DNA from: Melioribacteraceae bacterium
Lineage (GTDB): Bacteria > Bacteroidota > Ignavibacteria > Ignavibacteriales > Melioribacteraceae
Length of the DNA: 64,000 nucleotides
Assembly: GCA_021739765.1 (NCBI GenBank)
Contig: JAIPBD010000007.1
Span: 1 to 64,000, forward strand
Reading direction: 5' to 3'
Shown here: positions 2-12,006 of the stretch, piece after piece
How positions within the stretch are numbered: position 1 is the first letter of the stretch
Layout of the letters: every line of letters starts with the position of its first letter
Translations under genes and position numbers: made by a program
Notes under the pieces: generated by a model
The model's database searches: none
Told to the model about the DNA's origin: nothing
Seen by the model: the letters and a program-made list of their open reading frames with translations, nothing else

Positions 2-2740
2 AATTTCCTTTCCGAAATTCGTGACGAAGGAAGAGACAGTTTATCAATTTTTAACGATTACTTTAATGATTGGCAAAACTGGCCGGGTGATAAAGGCGCT
101 CCATTTGAAGATATCAATAATAACGGTGTTTACGAACCGGAAATAGATATTCCGGGAATAAAAGGAGCTGATCAAACAATCTGGTTTGTAGCCAATGACA
201 GAGATAGCACACTGACAATAAATTTATACGGTTCCGAACCATTGGGATTAGAAATGCAAGCTACTATTTGGGGTTACAATGTATCGGGCCCGGTTGGAAG
301 CACTCTCTTCCGACGGTTTAAAGTCACAAACAAATCCGATCAATCCTTCCAAGAAATGTTTATCGGTTATTGGTCAGATCCGGACTTAGGAGGCGCCGGA
401 GATGATTTTATAGGATGTGATACTTCACTTTCACTTGGTTTTGCATACAATGGAAATGATTATGATGCCCAATACGGATACCAAACTCCTGCTGTTGGAT
501 TGCAGCTAGTTGAAACTAATTTTTATGATCAATTCTCTTTTAAAAGCAAAAGTTCGAATTTATTTAAAGCAAATTCGGAGCAACCTAAAATTTCTTCACA
601 CATATTTTTTATTGGAGGAGATCCGGTTTATTCAGATCCAGTTCTCGGAGAATATATACAAGGCAGCATAACGATGTATAAATATTTGAGGGGACTTCCT
701 TATTACGACTATGAAAATTTTATCGATCCAACGACCGGTAAATCGACGAAATATTGTTTGAGCGGAGATCCTCTGAACAAAGAAGGTTGGATTGATGGTT
801 TAGTCCATTCTCCAGGAGATAGAAGACAAATAATTTCCGTCGGTCCATTGGAAGTGAAACAAGGTGAATCTGCTGAATTAACTTTTGCCATCAGCGCAAT
901 TCAAAAATCTGCTAATTTAAAAGCTGTTGAAGCGTTAAAATCGTTTGCTGAATATTTGAGAGAATCATACAAAAACTCTGAATTTGTAAATACACCGGAA
1001 ATAATTTTACCGGAAATCCCGGAGTTTTCAATTGAAAGAGGAGACGGGGAGTTTATCATCAAAATTGATAACCTATCCAAAATAAATCAAAGTATAGAAT
1101 CATTTGATAGAGATGGTGTAAAATTCCAGGGTTATAAAATTTATCAATATGCTTATGAGGACTTCTATTCTTCGATTTATGAAGCAGAATATCCTAAGAT
1201 TCTAATTAAAACCATTGATCTGAAAGATGGGATAACAAATATTAACGGACAAGTTTATAATTGGGAAGAGCATTCCTATTCGGAAAATCAACTGCTTCAT
1301 TCTGGCACGGATTCAGGAATTCTAAGGGAAGTTACAATTCCGATTGATTATCTCGAGTCCAAAAATTTTATTAATGGAAGAAGTTATGAATATGGTGTCA
1401 CTGCGTATGTTTATTCGGAATCAGGTAAATATAATTCGGAAATCGAAACTCAAAGCACGAAGAAACATATTGTATATCTCGATAATAATCACAATTCACG
1501 ATTTAGAGATTTAATTGAAGTTGAACATTTGACCGGAAATGGGAATGGTTCTGTTAGAATTTTTGTAGATGATCCCGCAAATTTGAAAAGTGAAAATTAT
1601 CAAATATCAGTTCAAGTAAGTGAAGAAAAACGGGAATGGGTTTTAAAATATTTACCGAGTCTGAATTTAGCTGCAGACCCTCAAAATAAATGGAATAATG
1701 AAGAGATTTTTAGGGTTGATGGACTTTTAATTAATATTAACTCGGAAGCCGGCTTAAATTATGTTACGGAATATGATCAAAATGATGAAGTTGTTGATTA
1801 TCGTGTTGGGATGCTAATATTGTCTGATAGCGCTAGTTCTGGATATGTTATCCTCTCAGAAAATTTTTCTCAATTTTACTTTAATACCGATACAAATATT
1901 TATGATATGCATAACTATTGGGGTAGAGATGACGTCATCATTAACTTTAATGATTCTTCATTGGTTTGGGATTATAAAAAGGAACAAATTCTAAAAGATA
2001 ATCTCTCAAACCAGAGTTCGAGAATGCCGTTTGCGGTTTATAGAATTGATTATGAATCCGGTGTAAAATATAGACTATTTGTTGCAATTCAGGACTCTGA
2101 TAACGATGGTAAATGGAGCGTAGATTCAAATTCACAACGAACCGGTGAATTTGTAATACCAACTTATGAACCGATTTATGCCTATCAAAGTTACAATGCA
2201 GATGGTGTACCAATCAGTTACGAACCAGATAACGAATTTGCCTACCAAGCCCAAAACGATCTTTTCACTTCAGCCAATTCAGCGTTTGGAAGAACGGTCG
2301 GTGAATTTGAATACCCTTTTGTATCCGGAATATTGTTCGGATTGCCAACACCCGAAGCAAAGTTACCAATCGGAAACAAAATAATATTTGCGACCCGTAA
2401 ACCTTTTTCGGAGGAGGATGTTTTTGAGTTTTCGACTAAGGAACATTATGGGAGACCGGAGAATCCTTTTGAGGAGAGCTTTCTTTTACTCCAAAATTTC
2501 CCGAATCCATTTAATCCGAATACGACGATTAAATTTTATGTCGATAATGACTCCGATGTTAAAATCTCCGTTTACGACATTCTCGGACAAAGAATCTCCA
2601 TTGTTTTTGAAAATTTTGTGAAGAGGGGAACGCATTACAAAGAATTTTTCGGTGCAAACCTTAGTTCCGGAGTTTACTTTTATACTTTAGAAGCAAACGG
2701 GCAATTGATGGATGTGAAAAAAATGATGCTTTTGAAATAA
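2..2740 (+). CDS. T9SS-exported large protein, 5' end outside window
   Basis: The frame is open from base 2, so the true start lies upstream of the window; about 912 residues are visible. The body is rich in Asp, Asn, Tyr and Ser, has no obvious catalytic motif, and contains fibronectin-like stretches (around 1100-1450 nt, 'KFQGYKIYQYAYEDFYSS'), as in many secreted Ignavibacteria proteins. The last ~85 residues form a type IX secretion sorting domain: NFPNPFNPNTTIKF, then a VKISVYDILGQ strand, SSGVYFYTLEANG, and a basic end, KKMMLLK. By family knowledge, this domain sends the protein across the outer membrane and it is cleaved on the surface. Function otherwise unrecognised. A strong terminator follows 8 bases after the stop. 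Confidence 0.85.
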   Translation, partial: NFLSEIRDEGRDSLSIFNDYFNDWQNWPGDKGAPFEDINNNGVYEPEIDIPGIKGADQTIWFVANDRDSTLTINLYGSEPLGLEMQATIWGYNVSGPVGSTLFRRFKVTNKSDQSFQEMFIGYWSDPDLGGAGDDFIGCDTSLSLGFAYNGNDYDAQYGYQTPAVGLQLVETNFYDQFSFKSKSSNLFKANSEQPKISSHIFFIGGDPVYSDPVLGEYIQGSITMYKYLRGLPYYDYENFIDPTTGKSTKYCLSGDPLNKEGWIDGLVHSPGDRRQIISVGPLEVKQGESAELTFAISAIQKSANLKAVEALKSFAEYLRESYKNSEFVNTPEIILPEIPEFSIERGDGEFIIKIDNLSKINQSIESFDRDGVKFQGYKIYQYAYEDFYSSIYEAEYPKILIKTIDLKDGITNINGQVYNWEEHSYSENQLLHSGTDSGILREVTIPIDYLESKNFINGRSYEYGVTAYVYSESGKYNSEIETQSTKKHIVYLDNNHNSRFRDLIEVEHLTGNGNGSVRIFVDDPANLKSENYQISVQVSEEKREWVLKYLPSLNLAADPQNKWNNEEIFRVDGLLININSEAGLNYVTEYDQNDEVVDYRVGMLILSDSASSGYVILSENFSQFYFNTDTNIYDMHNYWGRDDVIINFNDSSLVWDYKKEQILKDNLSNQSSRMPFAVYRIDYESGVKYRLFVAIQDSDNDGKWSVDSNSQRTGEFVIPTYEPIYAYQSYNADGVPISYEPDNEFAYQAQNDLFTSANSAFGRTVGEFEYPFVSGILFGLPTPEAKLPIGNKIIFATRKPFSEEDVFEFSTKEHYGRPENPFEESFLLLQNFPNPFNPNTTIKFYVDNDSDVKISVYDILGQRISIVFENFVKRGTHYKEFFGANLSSGVYFYTLEANGQLMDVKKMMLLK

Positions 2741-2748
2741 ACTAATAC

Positions 2749-2800
2749 AAAGTCCAACTTTTCTAGAATTACCTTTAATTTTTAAAAGTTGGACTTTTTT
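2749..2800 (+). terminator. Rho-independent terminator of the T9SS protein gene
   Basis: A perfect 14-bp inverted repeat, AAAGTCCAACTTTT (2749-2762) against AAAAGTTGGACTTT (2784-2797), is followed by a T run. The loop is 21 nt, longer than usual. It starts 8 bases after the stop codon of the upstream gene. Confidence 0.8.
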
Positions 2801-2870
2801 ATTCATCCTATTCCCGTTTAATCCGACTACATCAATTTATTATTCTTTGCCGAATGATTCTGATGTTAAA

Positions 2871-3055
2871 CCCGGATTATGCAATAGATTTTTATACAAC
2901 AATATAGAAATTGAGATTACACAAGATAAAAGCAGACTTGCCCCGATTTACTCGCTCTTAGGGTTTTCACCAAAAAGGTGATTAGTAAAAATGTGGAAAC
3001 GCTTAGAGCGAGTTAGTCGAATTTGCATTAGTGGTTTTCTAATGCAAATTTTGGG
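2871..3055. mobile_element. 185-bp MITE-like insertion with 5-bp target duplication
   Basis: It sits inside the sorting-domain remnant. It is flanked by direct repeats TTAAA (2866-2870 and 3056-3060). Its ends are imperfect inverted repeats: CCCGGATTATGCAATAG at the left against CCCAAAATTTGCATTAG read inward from the right, 12 of 17 identical. Removing the element plus one TTAAA gives GAT GTT AAA TTA ACT ATT, restoring the conserved DVKLTIYNSIG reading. It has no ORF of useful length, so it would be non-autonomous. It contains three hairpins: 2967-2981, 2950-2958 with 3005-3013, and 3020-3050. Confidence 0.75.
3020..3050. repeat. 12-bp perfect hairpin at the right end of the insertion element
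   Basis: AATTTGCATTAG (3020-3031) pairs perfectly with CTAATGCAAATT (3039-3050) around a 7-nt loop. It lies 5 bases inside the right terminus of the MITE-like element. The 3' arm is part of the terminal inverted repeat. Confidence 0.8.
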
Positions 3056-3283
3056 TTAAATTAACTATTTACAATTCGATTGGTAAAGAAGTAGTTCAGT
3101 TGGTAAATGAAAACAAATCCGCCGGAACTCATACTGTAACTTGGAACGCTGCTGATAAGGTCGGAACTAAAGTTTCAAGTGGCGTTTATTTCTACAAATT
3201 AACCAGCGGTGAGATTGCGGAATCGAAAAAAATGATTCTATTGAGATAGCGACATTTGTCGGAATTGTAAATAAGAATTATCG

Positions 3284-4024
3284 TTAATTGTTCTTTTTCC
3301 CAAGAATTACCAGATCCGAAGAATTATTTTCATCGAAAGGATCCATTTTTAATGAACCGAAAAACTCAATTTTTGATTGTAATTCTAAAACTTTTGCGAC
3401 TGTTGCCTTTTCATGGGGAAATATCGGAGTAGAAATCAACTTGCGGTTGTTCGGGTTTTGCGTCTCATAAATCAAAATATTGAATTGAAGCCTATCTTTA
3501 TAAAAATCATAAAACCGAATGAAAGTTTTCCCCCCGTTTTGCGTGATATTTACAATTCTTTCCTTTTCATTTAGAATTTTTGTGTAATTCAGAATTTGTA
3601 CCAAAAACATTCCATCTTTTTTTAACAAATTCGATATTTTCTTCAAAGATGTATTTAATTTTTCATTTGGAATGTTTGCTAAAACGTTCCCCAGACAAAT
3701 TACTCCATCATACTTTTCATCAAATTCAGGTGGGATCTCATCAAGAGAGTAATTGAAAAACTTAACAGACTGCGAAAATTTCCTCACATTGATTTCTGCT
3801 TTTCCAATCATTTTTATTGACGGTTCAAATCCGTCCGTTTTTACTCCAAGTTTGGAAAGAGCAATTGAATCAACTCCGGTTCCGCTTCCAATATCAGCGC
3901 AGGACATATTTTCCGGCGAGAATATATTTCCGAGCAGTTTTGATTTGTTTTCAACACTTTTATCAAAATTTATCATCTCGTCGTAATTTTCCGATAGAGA
4001 AGAATAAAATTCATTGTTTTTCAT
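3284..4024 (-). CDS. Class I SAM-dependent methyltransferase
   Basis: 246 residues, the usual size for small Rossmann-fold methyltransferases. Motif I is clear at about residues 43-53 (ADIGSGTGVDS), followed by an acidic residue at the end of strand 2 (DGFEPS), which binds the SAM ribose. A motif-IV-like DGVICLGNVLANIP lies further on. The N-terminus (FYSSLSENYDEM) resembles UbiE/COQ5-like and other Methyltransf_25 proteins. The substrate cannot be told from sequence. The gene stands alone on the minus strand, divergent from the nrf operon and convergent to the remnant upstream; no functional link to the neighbours is implied. Confidence 0.8.
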   Translation of the reverse strand: MKNNEFYSSLSENYDEMINFDKSVENKSKLLGNIFSPENMSCADIGSGTGVDSIALSKLGVKTDGFEPSIKMIGKAEINVRKFSQSVKFFNYSLDEIPPEFDEKYDGVICLGNVLANIPNEKLNTSLKKISNLLKKDGMFLVQILNYTKILNEKERIVNITQNGGKTFIRFYDFYKDRLQFNILIYETQNPNNRKLISTPIFPHEKATVAKVLELQSKIEFFGSLKMDPFDENNSSDLVILGKKNN

Positions 4025-4203: not shown

Positions 4204-5316
4204 ATGCCACGGAAATATATAAAAAACACAGAAAAGTCCATTCAACTTTACAGATCGATAACCCAGATCCTCTTTATATTGATTTGTATTTGGATCGGCA
4301 TCGAGTTTTATCTTTTCACTAAGTTTATTGAATCACCCGGTTCTGCGGTATTTGTCGAACGTCCGCCCGGTGCCGAAGCGTTTCTACCAATCAGCGCGCT
4401 GATGAGCGTCTATTATTTTATTCAAACCGGAATAATTCATGACGCGCATCCTGCCGGATTTTTTATACTGATTGCGGTTATCGCTGTTTCATTAGTTTTC
4501 GGTAAATCATTCTGTAGCTGGATCTGCCCGATTGGAACGCTTTCGGAATATATAGCCGACTTCGGGGATAAAATTCAAAAAAAATTATTTAAGAAAGTCT
4601 ATCGATTACCACGCTGGTTGGATTATCCGCTCCGTTCGCTGAAGTACCTTTTGCTCGGATTTTTTGTCTATTCAATATTTTTCACCATGAGTACGATTGC
4701 TTTAAGGATGTTTTTAGACAGCCCTTACAACTTGGTTGCTGATGTCAAAATGTGGTATTTTTTCGCGGATATTTCGAAAACATCACTAATTGTAATATCG
4801 GTTCTATTCTTTCTTTCCATTTTTATCAGAAATTTTTGGTGCCGGTTTTTATGTCCATACGGCGCTCTTCTCGGAATATTTTCTTTGTTGAGTCCGCAAA
4901 AAATTACACGTGATCCGATTTCGTGTATCGATTGCGCGTTATGCGCGAAAGCTTGCCCTTCCAATATAAAGGTGGACAAAGTAAAAACCGTCTTCTCGGA
5001 TGAATGCTCAACATGTATGAGTTGTGTGGATGTGTGCCCGGTAGAAGACACGCTGCAATTAAAATCAGTTCCTTTCAAACGGGTGATTCCCAAAAAGCTA
5101 ATTGCGTTTGGTGTATCAATTTTGTTTCTTACAATAATTACCGTGGCAAAAATCAGTAACAGTTGGGAGAATAATATTTCGCCGATTGAATACATAGATC
5201 TTCATCAAAACATCCACAGTCTCGGGCATCCGAGAAGTACAACAGAGCTCGACGAGCTTAATAAGAAAGCAAAACAAATGCACACTCCTAAAGAATTGGA
5301 AATAACAAATGATTAA
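4204..5316 (+). CDS. NapH/NosR-like membrane polyferredoxin (4Fe-4S)
   Basis: 370 residues. Several transmembrane helices (about 20-40, 60-78, 85-103, 140-160, 190-208, 295-312) surround two NapH-type motifs, CSWICPIG at 104 and CRFLCPYG at 213. Two ferredoxin-type cluster motifs follow: CIDCALCAKACP (Cys 241, 244, 247, 251) and CSTCMSCVDVCP (Cys 268, 271, 274, 278). Family members such as NapH, NosR and RdxA/CcoG pass electrons or help with quinol oxidation at the membrane. It overlaps nrfH by 8 bases, so it most likely works with the nitrite reductase, perhaps as an extra electron input from the quinone pool; that role is inference. It is not CcoG by context, since no cbb3 oxidase genes are nearby. 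Confidence 0.82.
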   Translation: MPRKYIKNTEKSIQLYRSITQILFILICIWIGIEFYLFTKFIESPGSAVFVERPPGAEAFLPISALMSVYYFIQTGIIHDAHPAGFFILIAVIAVSLVFGKSFCSWICPIGTLSEYIADFGDKIQKKLFKKVYRLPRWLDYPLRSLKYLLLGFFVYSIFFTMSTIALRMFLDSPYNLVADVKMWYFFADISKTSLIVISVLFFLSIFIRNFWCRFLCPYGALLGIFSLLSPQKITRDPISCIDCALCAKACPSNIKVDKVKTVFSDECSTCMSCVDVCPVEDTLQLKSVPFKRVIPKKLIAFGVSILFLTIITVAKISNSWENNISPIEYIDLHQNIHSLGHPRSTTELDELNKKAKQMHTPKELEITND

Positions 5317-5899
5317 AAAAATAATGAAGAGAATTCTTCCACCTCCCAATTGGAGGTTTCCGGTTACACTCCTAATGGGATTAATGACCGGCATTATTAT
5401 TTATACACTTTATATCTCAAACGCGGTTTCATATTTATCCGATGATCCGGAGGCATGTGTTAACTGCCACATTATGGCTCCGCAATTCGCGACCTGGGAA
5501 AGGGGAAGTCACGGAAGGGTTACTACCTGTAATGATTGTCATGTGCCGCATGATAATGTTATAAGAAAATATTATTTCAAAGCTTCGGACGGGCTTAGAC
5601 ACGCAACGATGTTTACTCTAAGAATGGAACCTCAAGTTATCCAAATTAAGGAGGCCGGTCGGAACGTTGTGCAGGAAAATTGTATTCGTTGCCACTCAAA
5701 TTATCTTCATCCGGTTTCTTTGCGTTCAACTAACGCAAAAGGAATTTATGAAGATAAAACACAAGTTTGCTGGGATTGCCATAGAGCAACACCACACGGA
5801 AGAGTGAACAGTTTGTCGTCCGCTCCTTATGCACGAGTTCCGGTTGCCAGAAAATCAACTCCGGAATGGATTCAAAAATTAATAGAAAATGAAAATTAA
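5309..5899 (+). CDS. nrfH: Cytochrome c nitrite reductase small subunit NrfH
   Basis: 196 residues of the NapC/NirT/NrfH family. One N-terminal transmembrane anchor (about 18-36) precedes four c-type heme sites: CVNCHIM (Cys 50), CNDCH, CIRCH and CWDCH. The first has the CxxCHxM form seen in NrfH. It is membrane-bound and faces the periplasm, where it oxidises menaquinol and passes electrons to NrfA. The start overlaps the end of the polyferredoxin gene (coupled translation), and nrfA follows at once. Conserved histidines after the last heme motif (HRATPHG) are consistent with heme ligation. Confidence 0.93.
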   Translation: MIKKIMKRILPPPNWRFPVTLLMGLMTGIIIYTLYISNAVSYLSDDPEACVNCHIMAPQFATWERGSHGRVTTCNDCHVPHDNVIRKYYFKASDGLRHATMFTLRMEPQVIQIKEAGRNVVQENCIRCHSNYLHPVSLRSTNAKGIYEDKTQVCWDCHRATPHGRVNSLSSAPYARVPVARKSTPEWIQKLIENEN

Positions 5900-5915
5900 A
5901 ATCGAAGGGAAAGCG

Positions 5916-7415
5916 ATGGAAAATCAATCAAAGAAAAAATCAGCAACCAACTGGATTCTATTTTTCAGTACAGTTGTTGTCGTATTTGTTTTAGGAATTT
6001 TTGCTTCCTCCATCTTGGAGAGGAAATCTGAAGCTCAGTACACTTTTCAAATGATAAAGCCGATTCCGGCTGATGAAGCGCGTAATGAAGTGTGGGGCGA
6101 GAACTTCCCGAGAGAATATGAAACGTATCTCAAAACACTTGACACCGATTTTGCCAGCAAACACGGCGGTTCGAAAATGATTGATTATCTGGAAAAATAT
6201 CCTGAATTAGTTGTGATGTGGGCAGGATATGGATTCTCAAAAGATTATAATCAAGGTCGGGGGCATGCATACGCGATTGAAGATATTCGGAATACATTAA
6301 GAACCGGTGGAAATGAAGTTAGTCCGATGCCCGCAACTTGTTGGACGTGCAAATCTCCCGACGTTCCTCGTTTAATGGAAAAAATGGGACCAGCAGAATT
6401 TTATAAAGGAAAATGGATTGAAAAAGGACATGATGTTACAAATCCAATCGGATGTAAAGATTGCCACAACCCCGAAACAATGGATTTGCAAATTTCCCGT
6501 CCCGCACTTGTTGAAGCATTTGAGAGACAGGGCAAAGATATGTCTGAATTTTCGCGACAAGAAATGCGCTCGCTTGTTTGCGCTCAATGCCATGTTGAAT
6601 ATTATTTTAATAAAGAAGTAGTTCCTGGTTCACCATACCTTACTTTTCCTTGGGATAAGGGATTCAGCGCCGATGATATGGAAGAATATTACGACGAAAT
6701 GGAGTTTTCGGACTGGACTCATGGTTTGAGTAAAGCTCCGATGTTAAAAGCGCAGCATCCCGATTTTGAATTGTTTATGACCGGAGTACATGCCCAAAGA
6801 GGCGTTGCCTGTGCGGACTGCCACATGCCTTACAAATCAGAAGGCGGTGTCAAATTCACTGATCATCATATTCAATCTCCTTTGGCCAATGTCGCTAATT
6901 CATGTCAAGTTTGTCACAGAGAAGAAACTGACCGTTTAATCAAAGATGTATATGAGAGGCAGGATAAATTGGAAGAGTTAAGACATCTCGCCGAATCGGC
7001 GCTAGCCAAAGCACATTTGGAAGCAAAAATTGCATGGGATAACGGAGCCGCAGAATCTCAAATGAAAGATGCTTTGCAGTTAATCCGTCATGCACAATGG
7101 AGATGGGATTGGGTTGCGGCGGCAAACGGATTAGGTTTTCATTCACCAACCGAAGCCATGCGTGTAATTGGAACCTCAATTCAAAAATCCGAAGAAGCCA
7201 GACGTGAATTAGCTGTGATTCTGTTAAAATTGGGTGTTGAGTACCCGCCTAAACTGCCCGATTATTCAACAAAAGAAAAAGCTCAGAAAGTTATCGGTTT
7301 GGATATGAATTATCTGAATAAAGATAAAAAAGAATTTTTGGAAACCACTGCAAAAGAGTGGGACAAAGCAGCATTGGAAAGACAAGGTACACTAAAAAAT
7401 TATTCTGGAAAATAA
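5916..7415 (+). CDS. nrfA: Ammonia-forming cytochrome c nitrite reductase NrfA
   Basis: About 499 residues; a pentaheme enzyme reducing nitrite to ammonium with six electrons in the periplasm. The diagnostic active-site heme CWTCK (coding bases 6339-6353, Lys as axial ligand) is present, followed by CKDCH, CAQCH, CADCH and CQVCH. The AQRGVACADCHMPYKSEGG and FTDHHIQSP segments carry the expected catalytic and calcium-site surroundings. The N-terminal hydrophobic stretch may be an uncleaved anchor or be cut near SEAQ. I chose the ATG at 5916 because GAAGGGA lies just upstream; an in-frame ATG at 5889 would overlap nrfH by 11 bases. Confidence 0.95.
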   Translation: MENQSKKKSATNWILFFSTVVVVFVLGIFASSILERKSEAQYTFQMIKPIPADEARNEVWGENFPREYETYLKTLDTDFASKHGGSKMIDYLEKYPELVVMWAGYGFSKDYNQGRGHAYAIEDIRNTLRTGGNEVSPMPATCWTCKSPDVPRLMEKMGPAEFYKGKWIEKGHDVTNPIGCKDCHNPETMDLQISRPALVEAFERQGKDMSEFSRQEMRSLVCAQCHVEYYFNKEVVPGSPYLTFPWDKGFSADDMEEYYDEMEFSDWTHGLSKAPMLKAQHPDFELFMTGVHAQRGVACADCHMPYKSEGGVKFTDHHIQSPLANVANSCQVCHREETDRLIKDVYERQDKLEELRHLAESALAKAHLEAKIAWDNGAAESQMKDALQLIRHAQWRWDWVAAANGLGFHSPTEAMRVIGTSIQKSEEARRELAVILLKLGVEYPPKLPDYSTKEKAQKVIGLDMNYLNKDKKEFLETTAKEWDKAALERQGTLKNYSGK

Positions 7416-10152: not shown

Positions 10153-12006
10153 ATGAGAAAAAACAAAGTAATATTATGGGCGGTTCTAATCATCGTTTCA
10201 TTAACTGTAACAATATATTATTCGCTAAGAAGAGTGGATGTTAAGGAAATGGCAACTAATTCTTCGAACTTAATCTTTGCGGATAATTCAAGTTTCTGTG
10301 CGACAGAACTATCAAATCTTCAAAAAGACAATTCTCAAATACTCGGATTAGTTGTAAATGACTTCATGCATGGCAAACCATTTACGGATACCGAGAAGCA
10401 AACAATCGTGGAACGGGTTCCGATAAATTCTACCTCGGTTTATGTTGCTTTAAGAAAAGATGGGTACAGAATTAATGATGCGTGGGGTGACGGGAACAAT
10501 TGGTTTGAAGCCCTTTTGAATGCGATGGAATCCGCAAAAACCGGTGAAAGAATTAAATCGTTGCTTGGTGTTAATGCGGTAGAAATTGCTTTTGCCCAAA
10601 AATCAGAGCTTGTGTCCAAAGATGATTTTGAGAGCTGGAGAGATTTTCGATCAAATATTAATCGTGGATTGATTGGGTTGGAAATCGAATATAAAAATCA
10701 AAAAGCGAAGTTTTCGCCTACATATTCTATTGCGAGTAATCGATCAGTCGATAGGTTAATTGAAGTCTATTCACAATCGATCAAAGTTGATGAACGTTTT
10801 GTGCTCGAAGAGGGAATTTTTAGAAAATTTGAGGCTATTCAGGCTTTAGTCCATTTTACCGAAGAACCAAAAGCATACTTCATGGAACGAGGAAATACGT
10901 TGGTTGAATTAGAAAATGTCGATCAAAAGTCGGTAGAACGATTTGGAGAACTTGCTTCCGGTTGGCTTGAAAATAATATCGATTTCGATGGAAAGTTGAC
11001 TTACAAGTATTGGCCGAGCAGTGGAAAAGAATCGAGCGCGAATAATATGATCCGCCAGTGGATGGCAACCGTTGCTCTCGAAAAATCTGCTATGGCGAGT
11101 AAAAGAACAGAATTATGGGATAAAATCGAAAAAAATATCGATTACAACCTATCCCAATTTTACAAGAAAGATGGTGAATTCGGAACTATTGAATGGAATG
11201 AAAAAGTGAAATTAGGTTCACTTGCGTTGGCGGTCTTAGCAATAATTGAACATCCGAATCGCGATAAATGGAAAGATTATGAAGACTCAATTTTGAAAAC
11301 CATCTATTCGTTGTGGAATGAGGACGGCTCGTTTACCACTTTTTATAAACCGGAAGGAAGGAATGATAACCAGAATTTTTATCCGGGTGAAGCTCTGTTG
11401 CTACTCTCGGAAATCTATAAAAAAGAACAAAACGAAGAATTACTGACAAAAATTATGAATTCATTCCGTTATTATAAAGAATGGCACTTAGACGAAGGAA
11501 ACCGGAATCCCGCTTTTATTCCCTGGCACACTCAAGCATATTTTAATATTTATCAAATAACAAAAGAAGAAAAGTTAAAGGATTTTATATTCGAAATGAA
11601 TGACTGGCTAATTCCGGTTCAGCAGTGGGATGCTGATTCCGCAATATGCGATATTCAAGGAAGGTTTTATGATCCGATGAGACCGTTTGGTCCTCCTCAT
11701 GCGTCTGCGACCGGGGTTTATCTTGAAGGCTTAATCGATGCTTATGAACTTGCTTTGGAAGTTAAAGATTTCGAGCGCACAAATCTTTACAGAAGAACCA
11801 TCAAAAGAGGGTTGAGAAGTGTTCTGCAACTTCAATTTTCGGATGAAATCGACATGTTTTACGTATCTCATAATAAACGAAATCTCGTTTTTGGCGGTCT
11901 GCGCACAACTGTCTACGATAATGAAATCAGATGTGATAACGTTCAACATTGTTTGATGGCGGCTATAAAAATAATTGGTTCTTTTAGTGAATTCGATTAT
12001 AATTAG
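10153..12006 (+). CDS. Membrane-anchored protein with helical-toroid domain, function unknown
   Basis: 617 residues. A single N-terminal helix (about 7-25) anchors it, probably facing the periplasm. Residues ~60-230 weakly recall the AMMECR1 pattern (STSVYVALRKDGYRINDAWG, later NRGLIGLEIEYKNQKAKFSP), but the hallmark LRGCIG is missing. Residues ~260-610 look like an alpha/alpha toroid with repeated helical hairpins and sugar-enzyme-like spots (GKLTYKYWPSSGKE, NQNFYPGEALLLLSEIY, FGPPHASATGVYLEGLIDAY), as in six-hairpin glycosidases or epimerases. No catalytic residues can be assigned. The CotH-like gene starts 32 bases downstream on the same strand, so the two are likely co-transcribed. Confidence 0.6.
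   Translation: MRKNKVILWAVLIIVSLTVTIYYSLRRVDVKEMATNSSNLIFADNSSFCATELSNLQKDNSQILGLVVNDFMHGKPFTDTEKQTIVERVPINSTSVYVALRKDGYRINDAWGDGNNWFEALLNAMESAKTGERIKSLLGVNAVEIAFAQKSELVSKDDFESWRDFRSNINRGLIGLEIEYKNQKAKFSPTYSIASNRSVDRLIEVYSQSIKVDERFVLEEGIFRKFEAIQALVHFTEEPKAYFMERGNTLVELENVDQKSVERFGELASGWLENNIDFDGKLTYKYWPSSGKESSANNMIRQWMATVALEKSAMASKRTELWDKIEKNIDYNLSQFYKKDGEFGTIEWNEKVKLGSLALAVLAIIEHPNRDKWKDYEDSILKTIYSLWNEDGSFTTFYKPEGRNDNQNFYPGEALLLLSEIYKKEQNEELLTKIMNSFRYYKEWHLDEGNRNPAFIPWHTQAYFNIYQITKEEKLKDFIFEMNDWLIPVQQWDADSAICDIQGRFYDPMRPFGPPHASATGVYLEGLIDAYELALEVKDFERTNLYRRTIKRGLRSVLQLQFSDEIDMFYVSHNKRNLVFGGLRTTVYDNEIRCDNVQHCLMAAIKIIGSFSEFDYN

Follow-up and report, generated by a model that had tools for sequence, protein, structure and literature searches.

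The IS1380 family (NF033539, PF13701) is characterised by CC ends and A+T-rich target duplications of 4-5 bp, and piggyBac transposons have CCC ends and TTAA targets. The latter are distant relatives of IS1380 according to the passages of PMC10140906 that treat them. Bacterial MITEs such as MITEPye1 (of IS1182 type) and the TIMEs (of Tn3 type) are short and non-coding, with inverted ends, duplications and stable predicted folds, and in the relevant passages of PMC11578231, PMC4133298 and PMC10969869 these structures are described as single-sequence folds rather than as covariation tests. The word IS1380 is absent from the main text of the review PMC10969869, and no description of an IS1380-derived MITE was found in the passages of open-licence literature consulted.

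The locus described here lies in the window, that is, the whole 64,000-nucleotide stretch that was analysed from the contig JAIPBD010000007.1 of a Melioribacteraceae bacterium (genome G000). It contains what is very probably a non-autonomous MITE of IS1380 type, moved by an IS1380-family transposase in trans. Although the element resembles the IS1380 family in its CC ends, its A+T-rich duplication of 4-5 bp and its matching terminal sequences, it has no transposase gene, measures 185 bp and contains a long core hairpin that is absent from the IS loci examined. Similarly, it is short and non-coding, with inverted ends, a duplication and a stable predicted fold, like MITEPye1 and the TIMEs, but the parent families of those elements differ (IS1182 and Tn3). 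In contrast to piggyBac, the duplications here are mostly 5-bp TTNAA sequences, although one IS1380 element, in genome G053, shows TTAA. The element and its relatives would form a new group of IS1380-type MITEs with a conserved structured core, presumably mobilised in trans and with a presumed role for the core.

The element occupies positions 2871-3055 of the forward strand and is bounded by two copies of TTAAA (2866-2870 and 3056-3060), assigned as a target duplication from the sequence and from the family-wide test below. It has no ORF of 100 aa and has full-length relatives in genomes G081, G144 and G082. Its left terminal inverted repeat, CCCGGATTATGCAATAG (2871-2887, forward strand), and its right one, which reads CCCAAAATTTGCATTAG inwards on the reverse strand (3039-3055), agree at 12 of 17 positions; it is therefore short and non-coding with inverted ends, as a MITE should be. 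The 185-bp length, the TTAAA boundaries and the imperfect repeats had been claimed in the first-pass annotation, and all three are confirmed. However, the window contains eight pairs that combine a 5-bp direct repeat with inverted ends agreeing at 12 or more of 17 positions at a spacing of 120-299 bp, so the local evidence by itself proves little: taken alone, the inverted ends and duplication are not above chance. A reversed-sequence control for this count is invalid because such pairs survive reversal. The case for a MITE thus rests on relatives in other genomes.

Upstream of the insertion, a 912-aa ORF (2-2740) ends in an intact sorting domain (2480-2737, forward strand; Por_Secre_tail, residues 833-908) that the insertion left untouched. 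Behind it come a terminator-like stem, 14 bp long and perfectly paired (2749-2797, forward strand), and then a second sorting-domain remnant (2811-3249, forward strand), which the element splits. Joining the flanks with a single TTAAA gives DVKLTIYNSIG, and the joined fragment scores above the Pfam thresholds for FlgD_ig, CHU_C and Por_Secre_tail. Of 14 other places in the same genome with which it was compared, 12 align with it across the insertion point without interruption, the best with 63% identity; one of the remaining two matches the terminator part only and the other only from the insertion point onward. By sequence, then, the interrupted fragment is a predicted sorting domain of the T9SS type, to which the genome holds 150 matches (E 0.001). 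Because the upstream ORF has kept a complete domain of this kind at its C-terminus, the disrupted one is an orphan second copy behind the terminator-like stem. The motif that was said to be restored by removing the element is indeed restored, but in an orphan copy; and the pre-insertion state, said to be directly readable, does form a continuous fragment but has to be deduced from paralogous domains, because no empty orthologous site was found.

Some further features surround this site. The stretch at 2741-2806, which holds the terminator-like stem behind the stop codon, recurs as a repeated 3' segment at three other places of the genome with 85-94% identity (L067/L073 on contig C4, L069 on C10 and L071 on C23), and the C4 copy sits directly behind another sorting domain. 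The two tandem sorting domains at 2480-3249, the second without a gene of its own, look as though the C-terminal part of a secreted protein had been exchanged or replaced. Downstream, the ORFs at 4204-7415 contain ferredoxin-like cysteine runs and CxxCH motifs, judged by eye, which suggests an electron-transfer gene cluster.

Relatives of the element are plentiful outside its own genome, where only the one copy is found. Thirty-six of 165 genomes of the order (the window's own included) match it at E 0.01 or better, many of the matches being short; long relatives occur in G081, G144 (76%) and G082 (71%). Eight copies read in G081 lie at different sites, seven of them about 80% identical to the window's element and one 74%, so that the several dispersed copies expected of a MITE are found in related genomes and not at home. 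The end motif, allowing two mismatches, is present in 33 of 80 genomes of the same family, with up to 46 matches in one genome, compared with two matches in total for the reversed motif. A scan of named genomes yielded at least 118 stretches; among the records listed, most are from Bacteroidota and Ignavibacteria/Melioribacteraceae, and one each is labelled Chloracidobacterium and Calditrichota. Plasmid and phage collections gave no match at E 0.01. On G081 contig C108, two copies that point the same way are separated by about 170 bp (L110:11594-11708 and 11878-11993).

The flanking repeats can be assessed across these relatives. Ends were paired by their own letters, ignoring the flanks, in 106 sources, and elements containing N and repeated flanks were dropped. 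Identical 5-bp flanks were found in 49 of the resulting 71 pairs, a set that includes chance pairs (two of the three from the window); 2000 shuffles gave a mean of 14.4 and a maximum of 26. Some of the 22 pairs without identical flanks are such chance pairs. The identical flanks are of seven kinds (TTAAA 20, TTTAA 18, TTGAA 3, ATTAA 3, TTTAT 2, TTCAA 2, ATAAA 1), and once the pairs with TTAAA at both flanks are set aside, 29 of the remaining 51 still agree. Since identical flanks far exceed the shuffles and vary in kind, the repeat is a true target duplication and lies outside the element. TTNAA fits 43 of the 49, and the target class is thus TTNAA-like and not TTAAA alone. An earlier pairing that demanded at least four of five matching flank bases, and a separate set of 90 pairs preselected for identical flanks with nested pairs included, do not constitute tests of duplication. 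Given that the end motif recurs in relatives and that their 5-bp flanks are identical, the element belongs to a real MITE family. The comparison with host and relatives that the first-pass annotation had called for supports its MITE claim through related copies elsewhere, which lie at unrelated sites with 5-bp duplications of varied sequence; the host itself has a single copy.

Folded as DNA, the whole element reaches -31.9 kcal/mol, better than all 200 shuffles (-15.0, sd 3.0; z -5.66). Of the three hairpins described at first, two are strong and the left-hand one is weak, appearing in the minimum-energy DNA fold and absent from the centroid. The right 115 bp adopt a predicted Y fold with two hairpins (2941-3055, forward strand; 114.3 bits with the covariance model R1), closed by CCC (2941-2943) and GGG (3053-3055). 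The first is the long core hairpin (2944-3019, forward strand), with a 27-bp stem (2944-2970/2993-3019) that is 81% paired and that contains T.T mismatches at 2949/3014 and 2959/3004, placed from alignment A1. The second is the end hairpin (3020-3050, forward strand), which overlaps part of the right end and whose perfect 12-bp stem (3020-3031/3039-3050) is exactly as first reported; the covariation supports it as well.

A single structure, CCC closing with GGG around two hairpins, was tested for covariation. Alignment A1 holds 13 related right halves from the window's genus and seven others. It was drawn from 17 type-B representatives by dropping five (L245, L107 and L113, which N interrupts; L109, which is rearranged; and the truncated L111) and adding L281, known from a previous fold; in G116 the aligner misplaced the left arm. 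Here 21 of 39 pairs show a two-sided change, and the share of cells that pair is 92.4%, compared with 32-48% when partners are slid. In A2, whose 36 distinct rows were fitted to the model so that the alignment leans towards the structure, 29 of 39 pairs are changed on both sides and 91.5% of cells pair (slid, 31.5-48.1%). Shuffles never reached the values observed in the 36 rows, although kinship of the rows can beat shuffles without any structure; more weight attaches to the slid controls and to the conservation of two T.T mismatches. These mismatches lie 10 positions apart: the first is U.U in 34 of 36 rows and U-A in two, and the second is U.U in 33, U-A in one and a gap in two. G.U cells outnumber A.C cells (70 to 31), but ten of the 31 A.C cells fall at one loop-closing pair and by pair position the ratio is 18 to 13, which is at most a weak lean to the forward strand.

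Of the 165 genomes of the order, 14 match R1, among them four (G118, G124, G142 and, weakly, G134) that were not used in building the model. Among 392 genomes sampled from the class, eight match, all of them previously seen or equal to a training record; the two matches in G218, for instance, have the coordinates of the model inputs L285 and L330, and I treat that genome as the same one and not as independent. Weaker matches occur in the Bacteroidota loci L272, L334, L346 and L288, at E values of 1.7e-6 to 2.8e-4 that are rough. Rfam 15 returned 12 matches for 2700-3300 of the window at E up to 5, all far under their gathering scores and mostly to eukaryotic RNA models, and returned only two tRNAs for 14 related loci. 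In copies from G143 and G124 (L395:1501-1615 and L377:1417-1533), the end hairpin reads CATCCCG...GGGATG in place of CATTAG...CTAATG; pairing is kept and the usual end motif is lost.

A second element type, 165-168 bp long, occurs in Bacteroidota (L255:6245-6411, L273:2072-2238, L311:3084-3248, L357:3153-3318, L249:4737-4901) with similar ends, TTNAA flanks and one long hairpin. In 15 sequences, 22 of its 40 predicted pairs show two-sided change, part of them inside the inverted ends, and it has no Rfam match. This second fold hints that several MITE lineages carry folded modules.

How might such a core be explained? Tentatively, it may be a structured nucleic acid under selection, a Y-shaped module whose two T.T (U.U) mismatches are separated by roughly one helical turn and which serves the element's own spread, kept across genera while its stem letters are replaced, whether as a single-strand or cruciform form recognised by the transposase or as a stable RNA. 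The main rival, which concerns the core only, is that the covariation arises from homogenisation of the palindrome at the DNA level (quasi-palindrome correction, template switching) with no selection for structure. Quasi-palindrome correction is a known process at palindromes, and functionless pairing would also mimic covariation. However, homogenisation should erase the T.T mismatches, and both are kept (in 34 and 33 of 36 rows) while adjacent pairs are exchanged, an argument of moderate strength given that the rows are related. I regard homogenisation as rather unlikely, if a serious contender, and a functional core structure as likely enough to test.

Which transposase moves these elements? 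G155 has a 1486-bp IS whose ends are alike at 17 of 18 positions and which has ATAAT at both flanks; it encodes an intact transposase of 441 aa that both NCBIfam (265.8 bits against a cut-off of 180) and Pfam assign to IS1380. The IS in G053 has one end CCCTAATCATGCAATAG (L161), an end agreement of 13/18 and a TTAA repeat of 4 bp rather than 5 bp, and an IS1380 remnant in G018 (L162) carries the end CCCAAATTATGCAATAG. The left end of the window's element is close to that of L161, and its right end shares 19 of 21 bases with that of the G155 IS (E 4e-4 when nine IS ends were compared), this being the only match between the two elements. The ends of the window's element are thus IS1380-like, and its 5-bp A+T-rich duplication falls in the same 4-5-bp class as the ATAAT of G155 and the TTAA of G053. 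Two other MITEs go further: a 288-bp one in G159 (L165:800-1087) is 76% identical to the left end of the G155 IS over 136 columns and identical to its right end at 19 of 19 bases, its own flanks being different (TTAAA and TTTAT), and one in G081 (L106) is 69.6% identical to the left end over 135 columns. The autonomous IS with such ends that the first-pass annotation had asked for accordingly exist as IS1380-family elements in related genomes, and the outcome it had held to count against a MITE, single copies everywhere and no related IS ends, is not what is seen.

The alternative is that a transposase of another family moved the element and that the likeness of the ends to IS1380 is convergence. 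PF13701 matches 3 of 14 genomes tested (two above the cut-off) and has no match in the window's genome, where the G155 transposase as query also found nothing at E 1e-10; even the copy-rich G081 has no IS1380 match, and the window's element has only its ends in common with the IS. No IS loci examined were found to carry the long core hairpin, the best match to the core model (L186, 14.4 bits) covering the end hairpin. Nevertheless, several IS1380 loci, from different genera, have ends like these, two MITEs share more than 130 bp with the IS left end, and the duplication length agrees with that of the G155 IS, all of which makes another family improbable. Relatives of the G155 transposase, many of which are broken, occur in 28 of the order's 165 genomes. 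The lack of an IS1380 transposase in G000 is still compatible with past movement in trans, but because of it the assignment to IS1380-mobilised elements rests on the relatives.

A role for neighbouring genes, as a cis-regulatory or terminator-like structure kept on their account, might be suggested by the strong fold and by the intergenic position in every context classified: 32 of 37 matches had enough flank for this, and none falls within an ORF of at least 80 aa. Their orientations to the flanking ORFs, set by a crude ORF rule, are even, however (7, 7, 6 and 5 in the four classes flanked by two ORFs, and seven more with a one-sided ORF or none), and the window's copy sits in an orphan remnant, which leaves this explanation very improbable. 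Finally, an integron gene cassette or another product of site-specific recombination, which the folded right end and the resemblance of the GTTAAA junction to an attC core might recall, has next to nothing to recommend it, as the ends are inverted repeats and the 5-mers at the flanks differ from one copy to the next but are the same on the two sides of each, and attC/integron identity was rejected.

Mobilisation by IS1380 would proceed as follows. An IS1380-family DDE transposase, supplied in trans, would recognise the CCC...CA(A/T)TAG ends and insert the element into TTNAA-like targets, duplicating 5 bp. The transposase behind the present copy may since have been lost from the genome or may never have been resident there. 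In its layout the end hairpin is similar to the left end of the IS, and it is probably arranged for binding of the transposase. The long core hairpin, in which pairing is kept while letters change, probably serves the element rather than neighbouring genes, possibly as a single-strand or cruciform form in transposition or as a transcript.

These results define a group of MITEs across Ignavibacteria-like genomes and Bacteroidota together with its probable transposase family, and the covariance model of the core is a means of finding more such elements. The TTNAA targets, beside one case of TTAA, are also relevant to the relationship that has been proposed between IS1380 and piggyBac. If the core is functional, such MITEs would not be just shrunken insertion sequences but would include a structural component on which their own spread depends.
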